A model generated the notes under the pieces. It saw nothing but the letters and a program-made list of their open reading frames with translations. It had not been told where the DNA came from and ran no database searches. DNA of 64,000 bases from NCBI GenBank assembly GCA_030295235.1, contig AP026124.1, forward strand, positions 496,001 to 560,000, in the 5' to 3' direction. Both the position numbers and the translations under genes were made by a program. Origin of the DNA: Fistulifera solaris. Taxonomy: Eukaryota > Bacillariophyta > Bacillariophyceae > Naviculales > Stauroneidaceae. This document shows, in pieces, positions 8,907-35,756 of the stretch. Position 1 is the stretch's first letter. Every line of letters begins with the position of its first letter.

Positions 8907-9089
8907 GATGTTATGTTATGTTAGTTGGTGGACCCAATTGGAACGTCCGTCGTCAGGATTACATAGGAAATTATCGAACCGTAGCGACATTTTATCCAAA
9001 AGGTCTCTCGTTTCGACCAATCAGATGAGTAATTCTAACCGCTCTCTAGCCAAACAGATGGCTAGTTCCAATTGCATTTCACTTTTCAA

Positions 9090-10069
9090 AAAATATGTAT
9101 TCATGACTGAAGTGCAGTCGTGGCGAAAAACGGTCAACACTATTGTCTATAGTAAATACGCAGACAACGTTTCGCAAGGCTTTTCGACATACAAATATTA
9201 AGGCGTGTAGCGCAAACGCCGCCAAAGCCTATTTCACTGCAATAACGACAAATAATGGTGTCGAAAAAATCTGCTAAGCGATCTTCTTGTAGGCAGCATT
9301 GTCGCTCCCAAAAATATGTATTCATGACTGAAATGCAGTCGTGGCGAAAAACGGTCAACACTATTGTCTATAGTAAATACGCAGACAACGTTTCGCAAGG
9401 CTTTTCGACATACAAATATTAAGGCGTGTAGCGCAAACGCCGCCAAAGCCTATTTCACTGCAATAACGACAAATAATGGTGTCGAAAAAATCTGCTAAGC
9501 GATCTTCTTGTAGGCAGCATTGTCGCTCCCAAAAATATGTATTCATGACTGAAATGCAGTCGTGGCGAAAAACGGTCAACACTATTGTCTATAGTAAATA
9601 CGCAGACAACGTTTCGCAAGGCTTTTCGACATACAAATATTAAGGCGTGTAGCGCAAACGCCGCCAAAGCCTATTTCACTGCAATAACGACAAATAATGG
9701 TGTCGAAAAAATCTGCTAAGCGATCTTCTTGTAGGCAGCATTGTCGCTCCCAAAAATATGTATTCATGACTGAAGTGCAGTCGTGGCGAAAAACGGTCAA
9801 CACTATTGTCTATAGTAAATACGCAGACAACGTTTCGCAAGGCTTTTCGACATACAAATATTAAGGCGTGTAGCGCAAACGCCGCCAAAGCCTATTTCAC
9901 TGCAATAACGACAAATAATGGTGTCGAAAAAATCTGCTAAGCGATCTTCTTGTAGGCAGCATTGTCGCTCCCAAAAATATGTATTCATGACTGAAATGCA
10001 GTCGTGGCGAAAAACGGTCAACACTATTGTCTATAGTAAATACGCAGACAACGTTTCGCAAGGCTTTTC
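9090..10069. repeat. Tandem array, 221-bp unit, about 4.4 copies
   Basis: The unit begins AAAATATGTATTCATGACTG and repeats exactly every 221 bases (hairpin starts at 9102, 9323, 9544, 9765, 9986). Copies are almost identical; the one difference I noticed is A or G in the loop of the hairpin CATGACTGAA(A/G)TGCAGTCG. The last copy breaks off at GGCTTTTC, where unrelated sequence begins. 221 is not a multiple of three, and the repeated minus-strand frames are overlapping and unlike any protein, so the array is not coding. Confidence 0.95.
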
Positions 10070-21288: not shown

Positions 21289-24200
21289 ATGACAGAAACA
21301 AGGAACAATACTATTTTCAAGCTTCTCAATGACATGAAAAAGGCCTGTCGGCGACCGCTTTATGCGGATATTGTATTGCAAACCTCTCGATGGAAAAACA
21401 GGCACCAACCACCAAGGAAACCGTCGAAAACAAACGACATTCCGCACAAATCAGCGTCAGGAGTCTCATTTAAACCTTTGAACGACAGCAAGGAAGAAAA
21501 GTCTTGGCAACAGGTACGTCTGTGCTTGTCAAAGTCACGTGTTTCGATTTGCAAAATGGTCATGGTCGACGAATTCTTATGCGATTTGTTCACTTTTCAT
21601 AGCTGTTGGCTGAGGCGGCGGAACTAGCAAACTACTTGACAGAGGAGGAGCACAACACGGTGTTTCGTTTGGCCTCTATTATGCTACTAGGATATTTGCT
21701 ACCCTACTCGACAGGGAATGACTATTACTTGTTGGAGGATTTTCGGAGAGATCATGCCGACCCTGCTCCATTAGATATAGAGAAAGAAACCATTCAGTTG
21801 CCGCTGGAAACTCGTATTCGAAAATCAATTCGCAATCTACCGGTCAATGAAGTGGGGGATATTTTGACGGATCCGTATCACGATGTGGCATTTCATGATT
21901 TCATGACCAGAGGTTTGGTTCCTTTGTTAGAGGCGAGACCATTCCCCCGCGAACAAGTTGATCTTTTGCATATCTTTGCCATGATCATACATCCATGTCC
22001 CACTGCTTTGTTTCTTCCGCGCTATTACAAACGCGATTGCTCGATTTGGAGAAACGCCTGCCAGATTGTGGAATGCAGCTACGGTTGTCATTTTCAAATA
22101 CAATACAGACATCGCGTTCAATCGATACAAATACTTGCCAAGAGTCTTACAATACCTCCACTACCCGTCAATTCAATACGACCCGTCACAGCGCTTTTAC
22201 GAGGAGCGATCCCGCATTTACAAGCAGCACTGCATTGTTTCGCCATCGGCGCCGAATCCATCTACGATGCCTATTTAGCGTATCGTGTCAAAGTGAATCT
22301 TGATATCCAAACACAAAATGTGGAAATAATAAGAGATGGTTGGGATTCCTTGCTGCATCACTTTGACGAAAACAGTGATCATGGCTGCGGCACCTGTTTG
22401 AATAAACTTCACCATCGGAAATGCATACGGAACGCCTTCGACATACCCAATGATGAGGACACTTTCTGCTTGAACTCGGCTCGAGGACAGCTTTTGTCCT
22501 TTTCATTCTGCGATCGTGTGGTACGTATGATATAGTGGATCCAGAGCTCCTCTACAAAATGGTGGAGGGTCTCGGAGAACGGATTGAATGGCAGTTGGAA
22601 AATTGGAAAAGATGCGACAAGCCAAACAATGGAAACGACGCAAAACGTACACGTTCGCCGTGCTTACTTGCCGCACTACTATCTGCGGCACGATATGCGT
22701 TTCTATTTCGACCCTCGCGATTAAAAGACGAGGACGATGATCCATGTGCGACGCCCATCGAATGTGCAATTCAACTTCTCAGTCACCCCAATGCGTCTAT
22801 AGCGGAAGAATCAGCAAAGTTATTGACCACGGCTTTTCGTCAGGACAGAGACAACAATATCAGGTTATATGCAGTCTCCCTCTTCCAAGGGATTTATGAG
22901 ATGCTCAAAGGTGATGGTGGCATTGCGCAGCTGACGGAGTTGGCTGGTGTTGCTACTGAACAAACACCGCAACACGGACTATCCCTGATGAATTTCTTGT
23001 TCGAAATTCCGGAGATTGAGTCAGATGGGCAGCTGCACCGTCGATTGCAGGTGATTGTGGCCATAGCGATGAATTGTCCTTTGATAGCCTTTAAACAGGT
23101 GGAAAAGCTCGTATTGTTGATGAACTCCATTCCATTGAATTCAACTCCTTTACTGTTTCCTGCAATCACAGCAAGCCGTCTTGCACATTTCCTTCCTGGT
23201 AAGGACGACAAAAACATTCATGAGCCAGCGACTCGCATTCTCTCTCTCGACGCTTGGTCAAGGTACAAAGTTGCGCAGCATTCGATTGTATCCGGAAATT
23301 TCCTAGAGGCTTCCCAATGTTTCAGCAGTCTACTTGACAATTGCTCCAATGAGAACCATTATTTGTGGATCGATTCATTGGAACAACTCTCTTCAGCTGA
23401 AGCGGCACTCGCCGCACGCGCTTCCATGGGTATCCCAGATGCTGTGGAAAAGCTGCAAAGAGCTGTGGACCGACTTCACCGCATCCGCAACACGAAAGAA
23501 AGTTATCACTTTACAATAGCCTTCCTACGGTTGAGGCTTGATTTTTTAGATCTCACTACTGTGCTGCGGCAACTAACGCGTGAAATGCGACTGACGGGCT
23601 CCTATCCATCGAAGAAAACGCGCAATCATCTTTATATGCTAAACACGATCAAATCGTTCAAGATTATTGCTCAAAGATTCAAAAGGCTTTGCTGGGAAGG
23701 AGGAATCCGCTTTCGACATTATCAGTCGAGAATGGCGCTTTGCATCCACAGCCAGATGGCGCTATTCTTGCTTTCGTTGACACAAATGACGTTTGCAGAC
23801 GCAAAATCGGTGAAACAGAAACTCTCGTTTCTATGTGACAACTCCCTTCGTCACCCTATGGCCGTATTGATGCGCGAGATGGCTTCTACCATTTCGGAAG
23901 AAACGGATTCGATAGCTCGAGCTGAAATCTTATTACAGCTTTTGGATGGGCTGCTTATGACGCCGGTGCCAATCCCGCGAGACATCTTCTTGCCTAAATC
24001 TGACTATACCGCGGAACTTCAACTGTTGGTAAGCTCTGGCGATAGAGAACATAATATCATCCACGCCTTTCCAACAGCTGGTTTTGAGTTTCAAGTGGTA
24101 GGGTGTATCTCGCCTAATTTGCTTCGTGAAGCTCTTGACCCTATTGCAATGTTTTCAGTGTGGTTTCGCGTAAGTTATGTGGCCCCAATCGATGACGAAG

Positions 24201-24463
24201 ACGGAAATAAGGGCGACGACGAGGCCGAAGCAGACACAACGACCATCGCCACCATTCCCGATCTGTCTAAATTATCGCCGTGGTCGGGTACTTTTTGTCC
24301 CACCAGCGGTAGATTCGCGGATGAAATCGAAGGAATGCCGTTTGCTGACGAAGGTGTCTTCCTTCTGGAAGCTCAGTTAGGTTGCCAAGATATTGCTGGA
24401 AAGTGTTGGAAGTTGCAAAGTGTGCCTGCTTCGATACGAATTCGCGTTGCTCGACCGCGTTAA
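21289..24463 (+). CDS. Integrator subunit 7-like HEAT protein (frame shifted three times)
   Basis: Exon 1 (21289-21513) joins exon 2 (from 21603) across a GTACGT...CATAG intron. Three single-base slips then break exon 2: one extra base near 22000, one missing near 22250 (TTT run) and one missing near 22457 (GG). Allowing for them gives an uninterrupted protein of about 1028 residues, close to animal INTS7. Segments in order: LAEAAELANYLTEEEHNTVFRLASI, ARLWNAATVVIFKYNTDIAFNRYKYL, GAESIYDAYLAYRVK, VDPELLYKMVEGLGERIEW, then long alpha-helical repeats. The end, VFLLEAQLGCQDI...GKCWK, matches the beta-type INTS7 C-terminus in spacing. Integrator cuts nascent RNA at paused polymerase II. Family assignment rests on architecture and weak motifs, so it is tentative; an unrelated HEAT protein is possible. 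Confidence 0.5.
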
Positions 24464-24835
24464 AGCGATTGCAAAGTCACAGCTTCTCTGTAGTTCCCAT
24501 TGCGCACTAGGTTTGAATAGACATTGACTAAAATGAAGCAAGACCGTCGAAGTCAAGCTGTAATGGTCACCACACGAAGCAAGAAAGTCCGCATTTTTTC
24601 ATTTGAGGGTTGAGATTGGTGCCCTCGCCAAAGGCAGATCCAAATGCTATTCAATTTTGCCAGTACCATTTACTAAGCTAGCTAAAGCTTTTGTTTTGTG
24701 TCCCTATTCGATGAGTGCTTCTCATGCAGTCGACGCACCAAAATAAGCTAGCGCCTTCGATTTCCTGTTGTTTCGCTGCTTGTTCATCCATTGAGCTTTC
24801 CCGCCGCGGACGGGGTACTCTGTAATTTTTTCTCA
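24464..24835. other. Convergent 3' region, nothing recognised
   Basis: Short gap between the HEAT-repeat gene and the ASCH gene; contains repeated GCTAGC/AGCTA words near 24676-24750 but no gene. Confidence 0.45.
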
Positions 24836-25318
24836 TCACGTACGGCCATTGCTATCTTTCTTCGATACTATTTCAAACAACGATCGCATGCGGCGTTCGA
24901 CCCAGACTGGGTCTCGTCGCTCTGCAAAGTTAGTAGCAAAGCTAATTACCCATCCATACAGTCGCTCCGTGTCTTCTTTCCATCCGAATGAGCTTGTGGC
25001 AGGAACTAGATGAAACCTCTCGTCCGAACGGAAATCTTCTTCTGAACTGTAAATTTGTACATGCGAGAATATAACAGACCCGACAATGCGGTTGGTCTGG
25101 AATCGATCGGGTAGACCACTCTGACTTGTTCCTTGATCCTCCGATTCAAGTAAGAGTATGCGGCGCCCCAGCAAGCTTTCTGGAAAAGGATAAGCTCTAG
25201 CTTCGATGGTCTTCTTTCCTTCGGACCGCAAACTGGACCATGGCTGCTGTACTTCCAAAGCGTACTCTCCCGTCGACCAGTTGGGGTGATCGATCGAATA
25301 GAAGTCGTGCTTACTCAT
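24836..25318 (-). CDS. ASCH-domain protein
   Basis: Single exon, 160 residues. Residues about 19-150 form an ASCH (PUA-like) fold: YALEVQQPWSSLRSEGKKTIEAR is the signature strand-helix with the GxKxxExR core, followed by LLGRRILLLES and, after an insert, RIVGSVIFSHVQIY and the closing YGWVISF. ASCH domains bind RNA or modified nucleotides and some act as nucleases or co-activator parts; the exact role here is unknown. No transit peptide. The protein is short, so it is a stand-alone ASCH domain rather than a TRIP4-type co-activator. Confidence 0.75.
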   Translation of the reverse strand: MSKHDFYSIDHPNWSTGEYALEVQQPWSSLRSEGKKTIEARAYPFPESLLGRRILLLESEDQGTSQSGLPDRFQTNRIVGSVIFSHVQIYSSEEDFRSDERFHLVPATSSFGWKEDTERLYGWVISFATNFAERRDPVWVERRMRSLFEIVSKKDSNGRT

Positions 25319-25734
25319 CTAGAGTAATATGAAAGGCCAAAAAATAGTGCATAACTTCTATGATCCCTCGACATCATTGCTAATAATAAAGTGTTCCGCT
25401 TATAAAAATGTGTCTTTTGCGACGACTCAACGTACATGCAGTCCCGGCTACGGCACCATACGCCAGGTAACATTCTTGAATCATCGAGCATGACCCGAAC
25501 TCATTTCGTTTATTATGATGAAATTGATGACATGGTTCTGATGCTGGTGTAGGGATAAATTACGTTGATTCCACTAATAAACAATATAACTGCGTGTTAT
25601 CACGTATTATAATTCACCATGAACACTTTCCAGTCATGAATCATGATTTACCCTAGCCTTAAATCAGTTACACTGCTACAGCGACCGCAAAGACGGCTAC
25701 AACGTAATCCAAACGAAGAGAGTGCATCAAAGGT
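25319..25734. other. Intergenic with a degenerate hairpin-repeat copy
   Basis: No gene. Around 25631-25675 the words CAGTCATGAATCA and GTTACACTGCTAC occur in the same order as at 29666-29705, so the two gaps share a diverged intergenic repeat. Confidence 0.5.
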
Positions 25735-26273
25735 TTACTTCGTCGTAGACAAGTAAGTCAACGCCACAAGGAGCATGATGCATCCTGCCAAACATGCACC
25801 CAGACACAACTCCTGTGCTGTGAATAAATAAAATGTCCCAGCAAAGTCCAGAAAAGTGTATGATCTCGTCGAAAACGCAACTGTCACAACCATCAAAGGT
25901 TGTAAATACATCGTCATCTAGCGCACTGAGATGATTGCTAGGCGGTGGAACGACAGGCATTTCTTCATTCGGATTGCCAAAAGATTGCTGTCGTTGTCCT
26001 CTTTGTTATGTATGGAACGCTAAAAAGATAACCGTTCAAGAACCAGCATAGAAGTGCCCCGGTCCCCTGCAAAACTGTTTCCAAAAGGCAAGCGATTGGA
26101 AATCAAGCAAGTTGCTCCAGTGATGAAAATGGCCATACTCGTCAGCGCTACAACAGATAGCCTCCATGATAAAGCGCGGTCTCTAGTTTCGCGACAAAGG
26201 GGTGCTTACCACACACAATCGTCTAGCGCCGTGCCGAGAAGTGTGAGGGTTGCCGCAACGAGTTTAGTAGTCT
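25735..26273 (-). CDS. Possible small multi-exon membrane protein, structure unresolved
   Basis: Three minus-strand blocks read like exons. About 26270-26210 gives LVAATLTLLGTALDDCVW and ends at a GTAAGC donor. About 26182-26020 gives LSWRLSVVALTSMAIFITG and ends in a stop. 25917-25735 gives a very hydrophobic tail (ELCLGACLAGCIMLLVALTYL). The first two do not join cleanly: the simplest splice makes a stop, so either the acceptor differs or a base is missing, as elsewhere in this window. The sequence TALDDCVW followed by membrane helices is vaguely like small cation exporters, but I do not assign a family. Treat as a hint of a gene, not a model. Confidence 0.25.
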
Positions 26274-26399
26274 GAGCGCGAGAAACGTCCACCGTGCGTG
26301 TCACCCTTTCCTGCTACAAGCTGCAAGAACAAGAGTAAAAATGTCACGAGAGAAGGGAAAAGTACATTAGGACAACGATAAAAGAAATGCAGAACTTGC

Positions 26400-27289
26400 A
26401 ATTGCAATGGCATCGAGTACGATGCACGGCGAAGGAGATGCGGAGGAATCATCGGGCGTACCGAGTTATACCTGGTACGCGGGAAAATGTAGCTAGAGGG
26501 ACGTACCTGGTGACAGCGACAAAACCATCGCTTTAGCATAAAATGAGCACTCAAATAACACCAATAGCATGCAAACGAATGAAAGAGGAGACAATAGTGA
26601 TACAAGTAATCGGATCATCGATCTTTTACGTTACTTTTCTTCACAACAAGGCCGCAAGGCTGAGATACTTTCCTGGCGTATACATTCAGAAGCACATATT
26701 ATTCTACACTTTCCCCGTCGTAGCCTTCTACGTGCAGAATTGTACCGCGGTCCGCAGCTTGCCCCTCTCGCCGCTTGTCGGTAGCCACTTTTTCTTACCT
26801 CGTCGTATGAAACAGAGTCCTGAAACAAAATGATAAACTTTATCAAAACAAACAAAACTTTCGCGAGCTTCATGCTCTTTACTTGCATCCTTTCGTCTCC
26901 TGTCGGCCGGATTGGCTGTTTCTTCGCTCCGGCGGAGATTCAGTTTGCTCTGGAGATTATAGTATGCTGCGCAACAGCGCAAGTGTTCAGTCGCTTTGGG
27001 AGTCGGTGTGTGTTTACTCCTGCGTCTGTTTGCTTGTTCTGTCGCTTTGTATCATCCTTGTGCCTGCTTGCGTTGCGGGGCTTGTGTTGATGCGTTTCTG
27101 CGCTCGGACCGTCGCAGAAATCGCTCTTCTGGCGCTGAAGAGTTTTTGCTCGACCTTGTGGCTGTTGTTTGGTCGTCGTGCGGCTGTTTGCTTCGTTCTT
27201 TTCACGCGAACAGCTGTGTGTATTGTGAAGATGTTCTCTTGGCAAAGAACACGGAGTTTCCAGTTCGTTTGGAGACTCTACGTCTCACG
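26400..27289. other. Upstream region of the repeat-protein gene, T/G-rich
   Basis: From about 26960 the plus strand becomes markedly rich in T and G, like the coding sequence that follows. Frames upstream of 27290 stay open to 26996 without an ATG, so a 5' exon or a longer frame is possible. GTACCTGGT/ACCTGGTAC palindromic words lie at 26466-26515. Confidence 0.4.
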
Positions 27290-29145
27290 ATGTTTCGTCC
27301 TGTAGCTCCGGTACTTGACGCTACGGGGAAACAATTTGATTTGAAGCGAAACCACCGTGTCATTTTTCGTGTGTCTTTTGTTTTCATTCTCTTTCTTGTG
27401 GTGATTGGAGTTGTTTCTGCTTGTGGAAGTGCCAGACGGATCGGCGCTTCTGCAGTTGGCTTGTTTTTGTTGTTGGCTGAGCGTCGTGGGTCGTCCGCAG
27501 CAACAAGAGCAAAGCATATCGTGCGATTGGGGATTTTCGAGACATCTAGGTCTTTCGGTGTCGATCCCATTCGTCTTTTGTATGAATTCTCAAACAAGCG
27601 TGTTGTTTGGAACGCACATTTCCGATGTTTCTTAAAGGAAAGTGGTTTTCTTCGCGTTCGTTTTGCCCCCGATGAAAATTTGGTGTCGTGTCGTTTCATC
27701 GAACGGATGGGGCAACGAAGTGTTTGCAAATACTTTTCGGAGTTTGCTCATTGTCGTTGTTGTGTTCAGCAACCAGCTGCCAAGACTTTAGATGCTGTTC
27801 CTATGGAGATTGATGAGATGGCTGGTTTGGAGGATGCTGTTCCTATGGAGATTGATGAGATGGCTGGTTTGGAGGATGCTGTTCCTATGGAGATTGATGA
27901 GATGGCTGGTTTGGAGGATGCTGTTCCTATGGTGATCGATGAGATGGCTGGTTTGGAGGATGCTGTTCCTATGGTGATCGATGAGATGGCTGGTTTGGAG
28001 GATGCTGTTCCTATGGTGATCGATGAGATGGCTGGTTTGGAGGATGCTGTTCCTATGGTGATCGATGAGATGGCTGGTTTGGAGGATGCTGTTCCTATGG
28101 TGATCGATGAGATGGCTGGTTTGGAGGACGCTGTTCCTATGAAGATTGATGAGATGGCTGGTTTGGATGATGCTGTTCCTATGGAGATTGATGAGATGGC
28201 TGGTTTGGAGGACGCTGTTCCTATGGAGATTGATGAGATGGCTGGTTTGGAGGATGCTGTTCCTATGGAGATCGATGAGATGGCTGGTTTGGATGATCCA
28301 TCTTGTTGGAATCGTAAGCCCTTGTTGGTAGATGGCGTCGTTTGGTCTTCTTCACCAATGAGAAATTTGAAGCGGCAACGATTGTGTCTTGATCCTGTCG
28401 TAATGGTGGATCCTGGTCATGGGACGCGTAAGCGCTTGTTGGTAGATAATGTCGTTTCTTCCAATTCACCGATGAGGAGTTCTAAGCGACGGAGATTATG
28501 TTCGGAGCCTGTCCTAGTGGTGGATATGGCTCGTGGGACGCGTAAGCGCTCTTTTGAAAATGATTGTGTTTCGTCCTTTTGCCGAGGAACTTGAAGCGAC
28601 GGCGATTATGTTTGGAGCCTGTCGTAGTGGTGGTGGATCTTGGTCGTGGGACGCGTAAGCGCTCATTGGAAGATGATGTTGCTTCTTCCTCTTCTCCGGT
28701 GAGGAATTTGAAGCGACGGCGATTATGTTCGGAGCCTGTTGTAGTGGTGGTGGATCTTGGTCGTGGGACGCGTAAGCGCTCATTGGAAGATGATGTTGAT
28801 TCTTCCTCTTCTCCGGTGAGGAATTTGAAGCGGTGTCGATTGTGTCTTGTTCCTTTTGTAGAGGAGGACCTTGCAATGTCGACGTTGGATTTTTTGAGTG
28901 AAATGGAGATGAATACCATGCCGAGATTGGATATCTCGAGTGGAATGGAGGTGGATACCATTTCACACTTTTGTGATGTGGATTCAATGGAGCTGGATGC
29001 GGTGCGAAAGTGTAAGAGAACCTTTTTCCCTTACCTCCGATCCCGTCCTTACCTACAGCGGAAGTGCAAAGATGGTTTTTGCTTGCGCACGCGCCCGTAC
29101 TTGGCCCGGCAGTGCAAAAAGATTGTTCGAGTACTGGTTGTGTAA
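27290..29145 (+). CDS. Orphan repeat protein: 14-residue acidic repeats plus basic repeats
   Basis: The first ATG of the long frame is at 27290. With one base added at a TTTT run (28577-28580) the frame runs to 29145, giving about 618 residues. Residues about 26-46 are strongly hydrophobic. From residue 168, twelve tandem copies of DAVPM(E/V/K)IDEMAGL(E/D) follow. Then about five copies of a 38-39-residue unit with NLKRRRLC(L/S)EPVVVVVDLGRG and TRKRSLEDD, each carrying nuclear-localisation-like basic clusters. The tail is acidic (FLSEMEMNTMPRL), then basic and cysteine-containing. I know no family like it. The acidic-hydrophobic units resemble activation-domain composition, and the basic clusters suggest the nucleus, but the hydrophobic N-terminus argues for a membrane or secretory start unless it is spliced. 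Codon use is T/G-rich and unlike the neighbours. Confidence 0.6.
27791..28294 (+). repeat. Coding minisatellite, 42-bp unit, 12 copies
   Basis: Twelve in-frame 42-base units, each GATGCTGTTCCTATGG(A/T)GAT(T/C)GATGAGATGGC... and ending GGTTTGGAG or GGTTTGGAT. Variants are clustered: three E-type units, five V-type, one K-type, three E-type. That order suggests recent block duplication by slippage or unequal exchange. Confidence 0.95.
28295..28855 (+). repeat. Coding repeat, about 115-120-bp unit, about 5 copies
   Basis: Units share GGGACGCGTAAGCGCT at the start and the KRRRLC-coding segment near the middle. The last two full units are nearly identical, the first two more diverged. This second array lies in the same gene as the 42-bp array. 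Confidence 0.85.
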
Positions 29146-30202
29146 AATGATTGATCTTAGGGACAGAAAAGGTAAGGAAGAGAGGTTGTCACGAGGAGGC
29201 ACTGGAATCCTGTTTGCGCTGAACTCGACGGCAGAGACTCTGGCAGGGTCCGTGACAAGGTACGTTCACCTCAAGTCCAAATCTTTTTGTTCCTCTCTTT
29301 TAAACCCAATTAATTGGCCAGGCGTGGCAAGCCAACTCTCGCACTGCAATGAAGGTAAGGTCCCATGTCTCTCGTTAAGACGCCAGATGTGCCGTCTGCG
29401 GGTGTGATTCATGTGTTGAATCACTCGTAGCTCGGTGGCTTGGTGCAGTGAGACAGGGTTCTTTCTTCTAGCTCCTCGTGCAAGAGTTGTGCTCCTTTGA
29501 TTCTGGGATCTGCGTTCTATCCATTTTTAGAAATAATAGAATGGATATTTTTTAAAAAAATTTATTTAGTTTGCTGGTTCCTCATACTGAGTACTCCGTA
29601 ATAAATATATTGCAGTGATCCCCCTCGTAAAAATAAAAGTGTTAACCACGACCACGACTGCTTTTCAGTCATGAATCAGGATTGGTCCGAGTTACACTGC
29701 TACCTAAGCCTAACCTCCGTTTGTTCTGCTGGGCTGGTAAGCTATGTTTGTATTTTATGACGTGCTAAAGCAATGATCCTTGCAGCATTTGCAATGCACA
29801 ACTCGATTGCTTACGTCGAAAATCCTTGCAAAATCATTGTCTTTCATCTGTTCTATAGCCCCATAGTGTGCCCTACCTTTTCATTGAAAAATGGCGCACT
29901 GCTATATGCTATACCTCTTCACTAACGGGTTCATCTTGGTACAGTTTGGTAGCCTAACTTCATTTTCATTAGTATTTGACTACTTGCAGTAGCAATTGCA
30001 ATACATGTCTCGAATTTTGACTTCAAAAATCCGGTTGTCTACTTTTCTCCAACGACTCAACCTTTTCAGTCCCGGGAACGATCCCTTATTTTATTATTAT
30101 TTTGCCCGATCATTTAGTTTGCTGTGCAATTCAATTACCCCCATCAATTATCAGGTAGCTGTATTTGCAAACGAATAAAAGAAGTTGCCATCCAAAAAAG
30201 CG
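29146..30202. other. Intergenic, about 1 kb, with an inverted hairpin-element copy
   Basis: No gene found. It contains the hairpin element in reverse orientation at 29652-29673, the TACTCCGTA motif near 29591 and an A/T-only block around 29540-29570. Confidence 0.6.
29652..29673 (-). repeat. Hairpin element, reverse orientation
   Basis: CCACGACTG, five bases, CAGTCATG: on the minus strand this is the same CATGACTG-N5-CAGTCGTGG as in the 221-bp array. The arms pair over eight positions with one G-T. Confidence 0.8.
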
Positions 30203-31447
30203 ATGGCTATTCATTTCGAAATTAGAATCAATGAGCAAGCCGTAATTGAATCAGTCCACAACTTACAACATCAATGGAAGGAGTACTTGCAAAGTCGTTG
30301 CGCAACCATCGACACAATGACGTTTCAACAAGCTCCTTTGCAGTTGTGTTATGGTGGCGATTACACCATTTACAGTGAAGGAACGACAGTACCCAGTATC
30401 TTGCTGACGGAAACGACATCGTTTGAAGTATACACGTTTCTGTTGAGCACGGAAGAACCTTCGATTGAAGAACTCGAACCATCGGAAGGAGGAGGGAGCG
30501 ATCAAGAATGGACGGCTGCATGTGAAAATTTAACACTGCCACATGTATCGCTGCACACTTCCTGGGAATCATTACTATTTGAAGGATCTATTAAACAACA
30601 ATTGTTCTATTATGCGATTTCCGCATTGCACTTTGCCGACAAACAAGTTTCGGGTCATCTGGTTCATTGGAATCGTCTCCTCTTGCTGTGGGGACCTCCG
30701 GGAACGGGTAAAACATCTCTTTGCCGAGCTCTAGCACAGAAACTAGCAATACGAATGAATCGACGTTTTCCACGCGCGTGTTTATTGGAAATTCATTCCC
30801 ATTCACTCTTTTCGAAATGGTTCTCCACGAGCGGCAAATTGATACGCAAACTGTTTGATCTCATTCAAGAAATGCTGCAAGAGGACCCGGAGCGATTAGT
30901 ATGTGTCTTGATGGATGAAATTGAAAGTCTTGCGGCCAGTCGGTCGGCTGCGAGCAGTAGCGAACCCACCGATGCCATGCGCGCCGTGAATTCCTTGTTG
31001 ACGGGGTTGGATCGATTGCGGCATTGTCCCAACGTTTTGCTACTGGCGACCACCAACCTGACTCAATCGGTCGACACGGCCTTTTTAGATCGCGCCGATG
31101 TTAAAGTTTACATCGGTCCTCCGTCTCTCGAAGCGCGATGTGCCATGTTGCACTCGAGTTTAAATGAACTGTTGCGTGTGAAGATTGTCAGAATGACGGA
31201 AGAGACGGATCCGGATGTTAATACAATGACAAACTCCATGTATCAGCAACGAGTACTATCACTGGCGCTGCTGGCCGATGGCTTAAGTGGTCGAAGTCTT
31301 CGACGATTGCCATTGCAAGCACATGCACATGTTGCGTCATCCTCTTCGACTGTAGTGGATTCCATTCTCATGGATGTATTTATGAATGCCCTGGAGCAGA
31401 CGATACGAATGGAACTACAATCGCTTAAAATGATGAGTAAAGGCTAA
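30203..31447 (+). CDS. TRIP13: TRIP13/PCH2 AAA+ ATPase
   Basis: Single exon, 414 residues from the ATG at 30203. TRIP13/PCH2 is a hexameric AAA+ remodeller that unfolds HORMA-domain proteins such as MAD2 and meiotic axis HORMADs, controlling the spindle checkpoint and meiotic recombination. Seen: an N-terminal domain of about 150 residues, then WNRLLLLWGPPGTGKTSLCRALAQK (Walker A), EIHSHSLFSKWFSTSGKLIRK (the family pore-loop block), VCVLMDEIESLAASR (Walker B with E), SEPTDAMRAVNSLLTGLDRL, LLATTNLT (sensor 1) and FLDRADVKVYIGPPS (arginine finger region), and a C-terminal SGRSLRRLP sensor 2. All catalytic motifs are intact. Length is usual for the family (about 430). Its presence fits a sexual or checkpoint role in diatoms but does not prove sex. 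Confidence 0.93.
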   Translation: MAIHFEIRINEQAVIESVHNLQHQWKEYLQSRCATIDTMTFQQAPLQLCYGGDYTIYSEGTTVPSILLTETTSFEVYTFLLSTEEPSIEELEPSEGGGSDQEWTAACENLTLPHVSLHTSWESLLFEGSIKQQLFYYAISALHFADKQVSGHLVHWNRLLLLWGPPGTGKTSLCRALAQKLAIRMNRRFPRACLLEIHSHSLFSKWFSTSGKLIRKLFDLIQEMLQEDPERLVCVLMDEIESLAASRSAASSSEPTDAMRAVNSLLTGLDRLRHCPNVLLLATTNLTQSVDTAFLDRADVKVYIGPPSLEARCAMLHSSLNELLRVKIVRMTEETDPDVNTMTNSMYQQRVLSLALLADGLSGRSLRRLPLQAHAHVASSSSTVVDSILMDVFMNALEQTIRMELQSLKMMSKG

Positions 31448-31525
31448 ATTTTTTTCGCTTCGTTATTGTTATGCATTTGGCTGTTTTTACAATGATTAAA
31501 ATAGGCTTACTTTAGAATTTCAGAA

Positions 31526-32504
31526 TCATTGCGCCCGACGACGTTTTGCCGGCGGTCCATCGCCCCTATGCTGATCGCGACGCAAAGGATGATGTTTCAG
31601 CATTTCAAAGGAAAAGCCAGATCGTTCTGGAGTGGGACCACCGTCTTCCCAGCCTTGTACGGCCCATCCTGCTTTTCCGAATGCTTTACTCCCATACCCT
31701 GCCTTCCATCCGTTCCGACCAAACGCCACTGCTAATCCAGCAAACTCCCCGCTCGAAGTACTTGGCTGTCCTGCTCGCAAACCGACATGCTTCGGTCCCG
31801 CTGGTATTACTCTTTTTGTTGTTCCGCACGGGGCGTCGCCAATTTGACTTCTACAGGTCGTCCGTGAATGTTGATGGGTTGTACTTCGATGGCCTTTTGT
31901 GCCCCCTGCGACCCATTTTCAAATGTCACAAAGCCAAAGCCTCGACTGCGCATTGTTGTCTGGTCTAACATGACAATCGCATCCACAACTGCACCAAACT
32001 GTTCAAATATCTGTTTGAGTTCTTCGTGATCGACTTGCGGCGGCAGTCCTCCGACAAACACTTTATTGTGCAACTGTTCCGGTGTCAATTCGGCTTCGAC
32101 CGGTGGAGCGGGTGCTGCCGCGGGGCCATCATCACCGTGATGTATGGAAGGAGGAGCAAGGCCTCTGGCTTGTGCGCGTTTGACATCGACGATTTTGTGA
32201 TTGACTTCGTGTTTGGCTTCGTTCATGACTAAATCGACCGTCGATGCATCACTAAACACAACAAACGCAAAGCCTCGTGGTTCACCAGTTTGACGATTCT
32301 TCATGACTGTGCGAGTAAAGAAGACGAAATTGAGAAGGAAGTCATAGAAGGAACGAGACAAACTGCATTCTAAGACGCACCTTCGACGGATGCGACGGGC
32401 CCGTACTGTTCGAAATGCCATCGCAAGGATTCTTCTGTCGTTTGCCACGAAAGACCGCCGACAAAAATCTTGCCATGATCCATTAATATGTTTTTGTCTG
32501 TCAT
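31526..32504 (-). CDS. Two-RRM hnRNP-type RNA-binding protein (frame shifted once)
   Basis: Exon 1 (32504-32381) and exon 2 (32306-31526) join across a 74-base GTGCGT...CACAG intron. RRM1 has RNP2 KIFVGGL and, after the splice, RNP1 RGFAFVVF. RRM2 (about residues 115-190) has KVFVGGL and RGFGFVTF. The tandem, with the linker and the spacing of the two RNPs, resembles DAZAP1/Musashi/hnRNP A-B proteins that act in mRNA splicing, transport or translation. At an AAAAA run (minus strand; 31813-31817) one A appears to be missing. Adding it continues EQQK into RVIPAGPKHVGLRAGQP and a glycine/tryptophan-rich tail ending AKRRRAQ, a nuclear signal, for about 301 residues. Without it the protein stops after RRM2. 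It is convergent with TRIP13. Confidence 0.85.
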
Positions 32505-33003
32505 TTTGTGAAACAAAAACGATCTTGAACTTGTTTGTTCTACTCGAATGAGGGCTCTCTTTCTGCTTTGTTTGTCGCGACTTCGATTTATTGCACTACA
32601 ACTTTATACAACAGTACACGGTACCGGTACCTGGTACCCGGGGACCGTACTGGCAAAGGAGTATATGTTACACGTACCGGTACGATCTACGTCTACCTGG
32701 TACAAGTACGGAGTAAATCGTACCAGTATCCCGTGTCAAAATCTCCTTTCCTCCTCCGCAAATCGCGGTGTAATCATAGTTTTTCGACTTTCGACAATAA
32801 ACAATAAACCATGAAGCCATTTCTTTAGCTAGCTATTACACCACCACACTGATTGCTCAAACAACGTTCCGACGTTCCACATCCGACTTCCAACTTACCT
32901 AATCTTTGATTTCAAGTTATTGATGAACACCCGGTATGCCGCATAAATAAGTATAAGGACAAAGCAAAATGTATTCACTACACTAGATACTTGTTTCGTG
33001 TGT
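32505..33003. other. Intergenic with clustered GGTACC/ACCGGT palindromes
   Basis: Between 32614 and 32730 the sequence is dense in GGTACCGGTACC, ACCTGGTAC and CGTACCGGTACG words, plus TACGGAGTA. This looks like a short, palindrome-rich intergenic repeat. No gene. Confidence 0.6.
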
Positions 33004-35154: not shown

Positions 35155-35174
35155 TTAAGTTGAGGGTAGAATGG

Positions 35175-35416
35175 GACTGTGGTGTTTTCACGTACCCAGA
35201 AAATATGGGTGTGTGGTGTTTTCACGTACCCAGAAAATATGGGGGTGTGGTGTTTTCACGTACCCAGAAAATATGGGCGTGTGGTGTTTTCACGTACCCA
35301 GAAAATATGGGGGAGTGGTGTTTTCACGTACCCAAAAAATATGGGCGGGTGGTGTTTTCACGTACCCAGAAAATATGGGAGTGTGGTGTTTTCACGTACC
35401 CGGAAAATATGGGCGT
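35175..35416. repeat. Minisatellite, 34-bp unit, 7 copies
   Basis: Unit GTGGTGTTTTCACGTACC followed by CAGAAAATATGGGNGT. Seven copies with few changes. Because 34 is not a multiple of three, all frames read through it with the same peptide-like pattern, which explains long spurious frames here. Each unit carries a CACGTA word. Confidence 0.95.
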
Positions 35417-35756
35417 GTGCGAACGACGAAACGCGAAAACTTTTTGAGAAAGACGCCTTTCGGCGTCTGCCCATCGCTCGCGAGCAATAAAAATACAAAA
35501 AGGTCCACCCGCATGGAGCATGAAGTGGTTGCCGACTTGTTTGCTTGTTCTTGTTGTTGGGCTTAACCTTGAACTCCGTACGACGGATGCACGAATTGAG
35601 AGCAAACTCTCCCTCCAATCGTTCCTTTGCACTTTTTTTTCAACGGAACAAAAAAGAAATATATGCACAACAAACAACTCACTTCACACACCTTGTCACC
35701 TCTCATCATTACACATCATTGTACAGTATAACAACGAATAAACATTTTACGAAATC

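Follow-up and report, generated by a model that had tools for sequence, protein, structure and literature searches.

The repeat-rich region at positions 27290-29145 of the window, the 64,000-nucleotide stretch of Fistulifera solaris DNA analysed in this study, most likely (at a probability of about 0.6) belongs to a decaying, recombined member of a gene family that evolves concertedly in this alga. The original prediction was of an orphan protein, a status that does not survive comparison with the rest of the F. solaris genome, in which 16 related loci on 10 contigs have both a 5' block of 0.7 kb and a 3' block. Five of these loci are located on contig C17, three on C18 and one each on C1, C2 (the window copy), C3, C5, C7, C21, C22 and C35. 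The first 400 bp of the 5' block were found at 19 places, which correspond to the 16 loci together with internal duplications in C1, C5 and C7; the 3' block is present at all 16 loci, with one additional 76-bp piece near C35, where a degenerate extra 3' element upstream of the C35 gene (L017:2167-2271) is possibly the relic of a lost family member.

Within the window, the proposal that 27290-29145 encodes one protein could not be upheld. The 14-residue array is contained in a stop-to-stop frame at 26963-28594 on the plus strand, which terminates at the stop at 28594 and of which the predicted open frame (27290-28594, plus strand, 434 amino acids and a stop) forms a part, while the later KRRRLC/TRKRSLEDD units and the C-terminal part occupy a second plus-strand frame at 28564-29145. 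In tblastn searches with queries from the N-terminal part of C3, an intact paralog, from the repeat units and from the C-terminus, the window copy proved to change frame three times: near 26953, near 27200 and between 28540 and 28585. Given two frames and three frame changes, 27290-29145 is not one reading frame. The C-terminal region with its RPYLxRxCK motif (28876-29145, plus strand, from tblastn and motif comparison) lies in the later frame.

The family start is probably the ATG at 26830-26832 (plus strand), upstream of 27290, as the sequence at this position aligns with an ATG that is in frame in all four paralogs with a single frame (C3, C5, C22 and C35). In the window copy, the frame from this ATG is broken near 26953. 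Between the N-terminal part and the C-terminal motif, only these four of the 16 copies keep a single frame; by tblastn the other 12 have at least one frame change each, at places that differ between copies. The window copy is a recombined and probably non-functional family member, a likely pseudogene.

Two types of body were distinguished between the shared ends. H-type bodies, which carry RRVRF...HPAHW...ITWYD, were found in C18, C21, C22 and C35 and in the second halves of C1 and C7. R-type bodies, which make up C2, C17, C3 and C5 and the first halves of C1 and C7, have repeats that come after an RV[RH]F-like stretch and are built of acidic (MExDAM) and basic (KRKR..SPVR..KRR[RK]LC) modules. 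In a genome search with the H-type domain, 53 matches had an E of at most 1, the weakest four with E above 0.001; eight of the 53 are within the family itself, and many of the non-family matches are clustered on C25 and C26, with some on C11, C12, C17, C18 and C24. The H-type bodies matched small RRV[RQ]F...HPAHW proteins of F. solaris with E down to 1.7e-11, and RRVxF, HPAHW and GF.S were invariant in six aligned sequences. However, the small proteins shown have neither the 5' block nor the C-terminal motif of the family, and the R-type bodies retain just the RV[RH]F-like stretch in common with them. Clusters of these small proteins on C25 and C26 (L026, L027, L032, L033 and L034) form part of a larger F. 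solaris family, in which none of the four members scanned had a Pfam match at the cut-off.

The H-type bodies are under constraint, with dN/dS of 0.15 and 0.17 in one comparison and 0.15-0.22 in another, where saturated pairs (one of three in the former and two of six in the latter) were given no value. A chance open frame was rejected for these bodies on the values of 0.15-0.22 where computable. For the R-type bodies of C1, C3, C5 and C7, dN/dS was 0.30-0.52. Comparisons across the two types show constraint on the C-terminal motif (dN/dS is 0.09 for C35/C17e, for instance), but several R-type comparisons gave it ratios of 0.5-1.

The tandem arrays that had been recognised in the window copy are real. 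Twelve near-identical 14-residue acidic units of 42 bp, as predicted, are located at 27791-28297 (plus strand; 12.1 copies with 96% matches by TRF), with six distinct 36-nt cores and one frame throughout; the reported clustering of variants was also borne out, since the V-variants of the unit adjoin one another. For the approximately five KRRRLC/TRKRSLEDD units the array itself stands (117-bp unit, 4.5 copies at 28313-28832, 80% matches by TRF), but its later 39-residue basic units are out of frame with the first, being followed by tblastn to 28860 in two frames (28313-28860, plus strand). The suggestion that array length varies agrees well with the 12 acidic units in the window against 93 unit cores across the five-copy C17 stretch examined, in which the spacing is 42 or 48 bp. 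Neither array showed detectable amino-acid constraint at the level of sequence variation: among 105 of the 14-residue units (C2 and C17) there were 6 synonymous site variants compared with 6.4 expected, and no synonymous excess was found in the 39-residue array either, the counts being small in both. Stops were found in none of the 105 units, with just 0.8 stop variants expected. Among basic-array units picked by their basic motif, 29 of 38 contain SPx[RK] and 37 of 38 have KRR-like letters, although the latter count is not independent evidence because the selection pattern already included the basic motif. The arrays were without structure when the window protein was folded alone with AlphaFold (mean pLDDT 38.3; 390 of 434 residues below 50). 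In the intact paralog C3, acidic modules (MELDAM, MEVDAM) alternate with basic modules (RKRDLEDD..SPVRNLKRRKLC) in one frame, and the window and C17 arrays appear to be separate growths of these two neighbouring modules.

F. solaris is described as allodiploid, its chromosomes forming 42 homoeologous pairs (PMC13276009, PMC5935921). A primer for the apt gene of this diatom (PMC13276009) agrees with the genome analysed at 25 of 25 bases. The neighbours of the window gene are duplicated on contig C1 at 86-91% identity; C1:543500-550500 matches window 22066-25326 (86%) and 30162-32577 (91%), with no match between them. The intervening 4.8 kb (25327-30161), which include the family gene, are missing from the homeologous site, where about 500 bp of other sequence are found.

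The 5' blocks of 10 copies were 90.1-98.0% identical (alignment columns 77-700) whatever the relation between the copies, with body dS of 0.345 for C22/C21 and 2.66 for C22/C18. The C21 block is 96.0% identical to that of C1 compared with 92.9% to that of C22, the flanks of C21 and C22 being about 92% alike. The likeness of the 5' blocks among these 10 copies therefore exceeds what would be expected from their bodies or flanks, as in a concertedly evolving family. The window copy itself is a mosaic of a C18-like 5' part and a C17-like body. Positions 26805-27200 are 97-98% identical to C18 and 93% to C17, and a 12-bp stretch present in C17 is absent from the window copy, C18 and C35, while C17 is the best match for the body and the 3' part. 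When segments of 75 bp were compared, C17 was nearest in all four from 27525 to 27825; of the nine covering 26700-27375, C18 or C35 was best in four, three were ties and C17 was best in two (27075 and 27225), so that no single clean switch is seen. The presumed agents of exchange, gene conversion or crossing-over, offer the plain explanation of the alike ends, and constraint at the DNA level may add to their likeness.

Several other sequence features of the window were recorded. Positions 25658-26325, inside the stretch absent from C1, resemble places on C3 and C4 at 74-76% identity, and this sequence recurs upstream of two C18 copies. TRF identified a 221-bp tandem repeat at 9089-10069 (4.4 copies, 99% alike) and a 34-bp tandem repeat at 35171-35419 (7.3 copies); units like the latter were seen by eye in the C1 homeologous gap opposite the family gene, and the gap sequence also resembles C4:691500-696500. 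The 18-bp motif CTTTTCAGTCATGAATCA, with up to three mismatches allowed, occurs six times compared with 0.10 expected (717, 9318, 9539, 9981, 25626-25643 and 29661-29678), within the 221-bp repeat and flanking the family gene on either side.

The 5' block (26808-27580, plus strand) is homogenised between loci, self-complementary and apparently without amino-acid constraint, as judged from the 19-copy alignment, change counts, identities and folding z-scores. Across the 19 copies there were 55 synonymous variants compared with 57.1 expected and 161 non-synonymous compared with 153.8, counts that are inflated before 26901, where the columns include misaligned sequence of the three internal duplications; dN/dS ratios were scattered around 1, each pair of copies having few changes. 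Stop variants were absent where 5.1 were expected (P 0.0055), although in all of these counts and pairwise comparisons the copies are related, so that variants and copy pairs are not independent. Since stops are absent while non-synonymous changes are about as frequent as expected, the frame may be read without its amino acids being held. The hydrophobic N-terminal segment, for which a membrane-tethered or surface location had been raised, lies in this block. Its peak hydropathy in C3 does exceed a composition null (P 0.008; for the number of peaks, P 0.13), but as the block has no amino-acid constraint, the segment argues little for a membrane protein.

In all eight copies tested (of 15 aligned, with 20 shuffles each), the 5' block folded better than dinucleotide shuffles on both strands, with z-scores of -2.33 to -4.66 for the sense and -1.91 to -6.96 for the antisense strand, compared with a mean of 0.25 and a lowest value of -2.02 in 42 control stretches of the window; the window copy gave -4.92 in one run and -3.54 in another. 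Helices predicted from the alignment were kept in 98.7% of cells. Covariation was not demonstrated, as none of the 190 predicted pairs has a two-sided change. The pair-breaking substitution test gave sense-strand P values of 0.11 and 0.52 for the halves of the block, and since a control body on the minus strand gave 0.028, values near 0.03 in this test carry little weight.

Downstream, a 3' element of about 200 nt (29314-29516, plus strand), delimited by a covariance-model match, probably folds as a structured RNA of the 3' UTR, the pair counts and the substitution test being mixed. The region 29300-29520 (221 nt) had a folding z of -2.42, and two 160-nt segments across the element had a mean of -0.16. 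In the aligned copies 98.8% of cells were paired and 10 cells had two-sided changes compared with 3.5 in shuffled alignments, values reached by none of 500 shuffles; pairs with a two-sided change were just three of 44, a number matched by 181 of 500 shuffles. With the window copy as reference, substitutions broke predicted pairs 25 times on the sense strand, fewer than the 38.8 expected (P 0.0004), and P was 0.28 on the antisense strand; the corresponding test gave P 0.026 with C3 and 0.54 with C22 as reference. By BLAST the element occurs in tandem, two to four times, in C1, C3, C5, C7, C21 and C22, of which the covariance model resolves fewer copies in some loci. Rfam gave no match at the gathering score and three chance-level matches with E up to 5.

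Against the reading of the window gene as a broken copy, the avoidance of stops in the 5' block and the lack of stops in the 105 array units fit translation. Introns or ribosomal frameshifting might then rejoin the frames into an array protein much as originally described, and the spacings of 42, 48 and 117 bp, all multiples of three, as well as the splice-like GTAAGT and TTGCAG judged by eye to be in the blocks of some copies, would suit such a working gene. These splice-like sequences are, however, absent from the window copy, and the phases, followed by hand, fail to join the frames; in addition, the window copy has three frame changes and other copies have different ones, and the arrays are without amino-acid constraint. 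A working window gene is therefore considered unlikely. The avoidance of stops in the 5' block tells against the idea that the 5' block is mainly a structured nucleic acid, as a leader RNA or as DNA hairpins, whose open frame is incidental. The low folding scores on both strands of eight copies, compared with the controls, and the even spread of changes over codon positions, are what such a block would show, and C22, which has no ATG from the end of the block to its RVRF motif, is difficult to reconcile with it. Considering also that two-sided changes are lacking in all 190 pairs and that the pair-breaking test was weak and similar on both strands, this explanation appears rather improbable.

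Alike ends around differing middles, at dispersed loci and, for the window gene, at one homeologous site only, could also indicate that the ends belong to a mobile element carrying different gene bodies. No terminal inverted repeats were found, the single inverted pair observed being chance-like and confined to the 3' part, and no transposase domain was recognised in the proteins scanned; moreover, the 5' block was never found alone and the 3' block just once, as the partial copy near C35. We regard a mobile element as very improbable. The wtf genes of fission yeast, which are drivers, form a concertedly evolving multigene family with variable repeat arrays. As far as the descriptions can be compared, the F. 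solaris family resembles them in that its ends are kept alike across loci, its copies are mosaic and in many cases broken, and the number of repeats varies. By analogy it might be selfish or antigen-like, with diversifying selection acting on it, with homogenised ends, variable repeats and presence in one subgenome only as the points in favour. A wtf driver makes poison and antidote from one gene, as two transcripts, and drives in meiosis. The H-type bodies of the F. solaris family, by contrast, are conserved, and a family of the wtf kind is regarded as very improbable. The reading of the window copy as a decaying member of a concertedly evolving family remains the preferred one.

Searches of Pfam, NCBIfam, PDB, viral contigs and prokaryote genome contigs revealed no relative outside F. 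solaris; patterns were matched in the viral and prokaryote contigs, none of which was confirmed as a relative. No curated cut-off was reached, in keeping with the original statement that no known family has this layout. Matches of the repetitive C3 protein to Pfam Imm2 (E 0.0011) and NCBIfam SorU (E 2e-05, 24.7 of 100 bits) were read as composition noise because no single stretch passes, and PDB gave myosin matches on the array with E of 0.31 or worse. The family did not appear among the open-access papers listed on diatom RVxF/protein phosphatase 1, diatom gene conversion and tandem repeats, and Fistulifera gene families.

Tentatively, the intact members might be nuclear regulators, although this is doubtful. 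The transcription activator or scaffold suggested at first is likewise a candidate role. The SPx[RK] of the basic units would presumably suit nuclear import and phosphorylation, and the RV[RQ]F motif, we assume, docking to protein phosphatase 1 (PP1). Regulators of PP1 bind through an RVxF docking motif, to which the RV[RQ]F of the aligned bodies is similar; RRV[RQ]F occurs at one position in six aligned bodies, a motif for which chance matches are common. The motif is short, and no Pfam or PDB match accompanies it.

In the history proposed here, a working member would be read from the ATG in the 5' block of 0.7 kb, across a body that varies, to a conserved Cys/Arg-rich C-terminal motif, and its 3' UTR would carry the structured element. 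Exchange between loci would keep the ends alike and combine them with different bodies. The two kinds of module would each have expanded into an array of their own in the window and C17 copies, and small indels would have broken the frame. It is conceivable, though unlikely, that the family represents a diatom diversification system, in which a 5' cassette with self-complementary sequence and a structured element of the 3' UTR would be traded across the loci of both subgenomes and attached to different bodies, with the ends as conserved working parts and the bodies varying partly by array growth.

The seemingly one-off repeat protein proves to be a member of a family that can be traced through the genome of an allodiploid alga. 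Since the pure arrays sit in broken copies, the function is better sought in C3, C5, C22 and C35. Both the 5' block and the 3' element are as yet unnamed candidates for structured nucleic acid, and the 5' likeness of C21 to C1, which is greater than that of C21 to C22, makes the family a case for studying exchange between two subgenomes.
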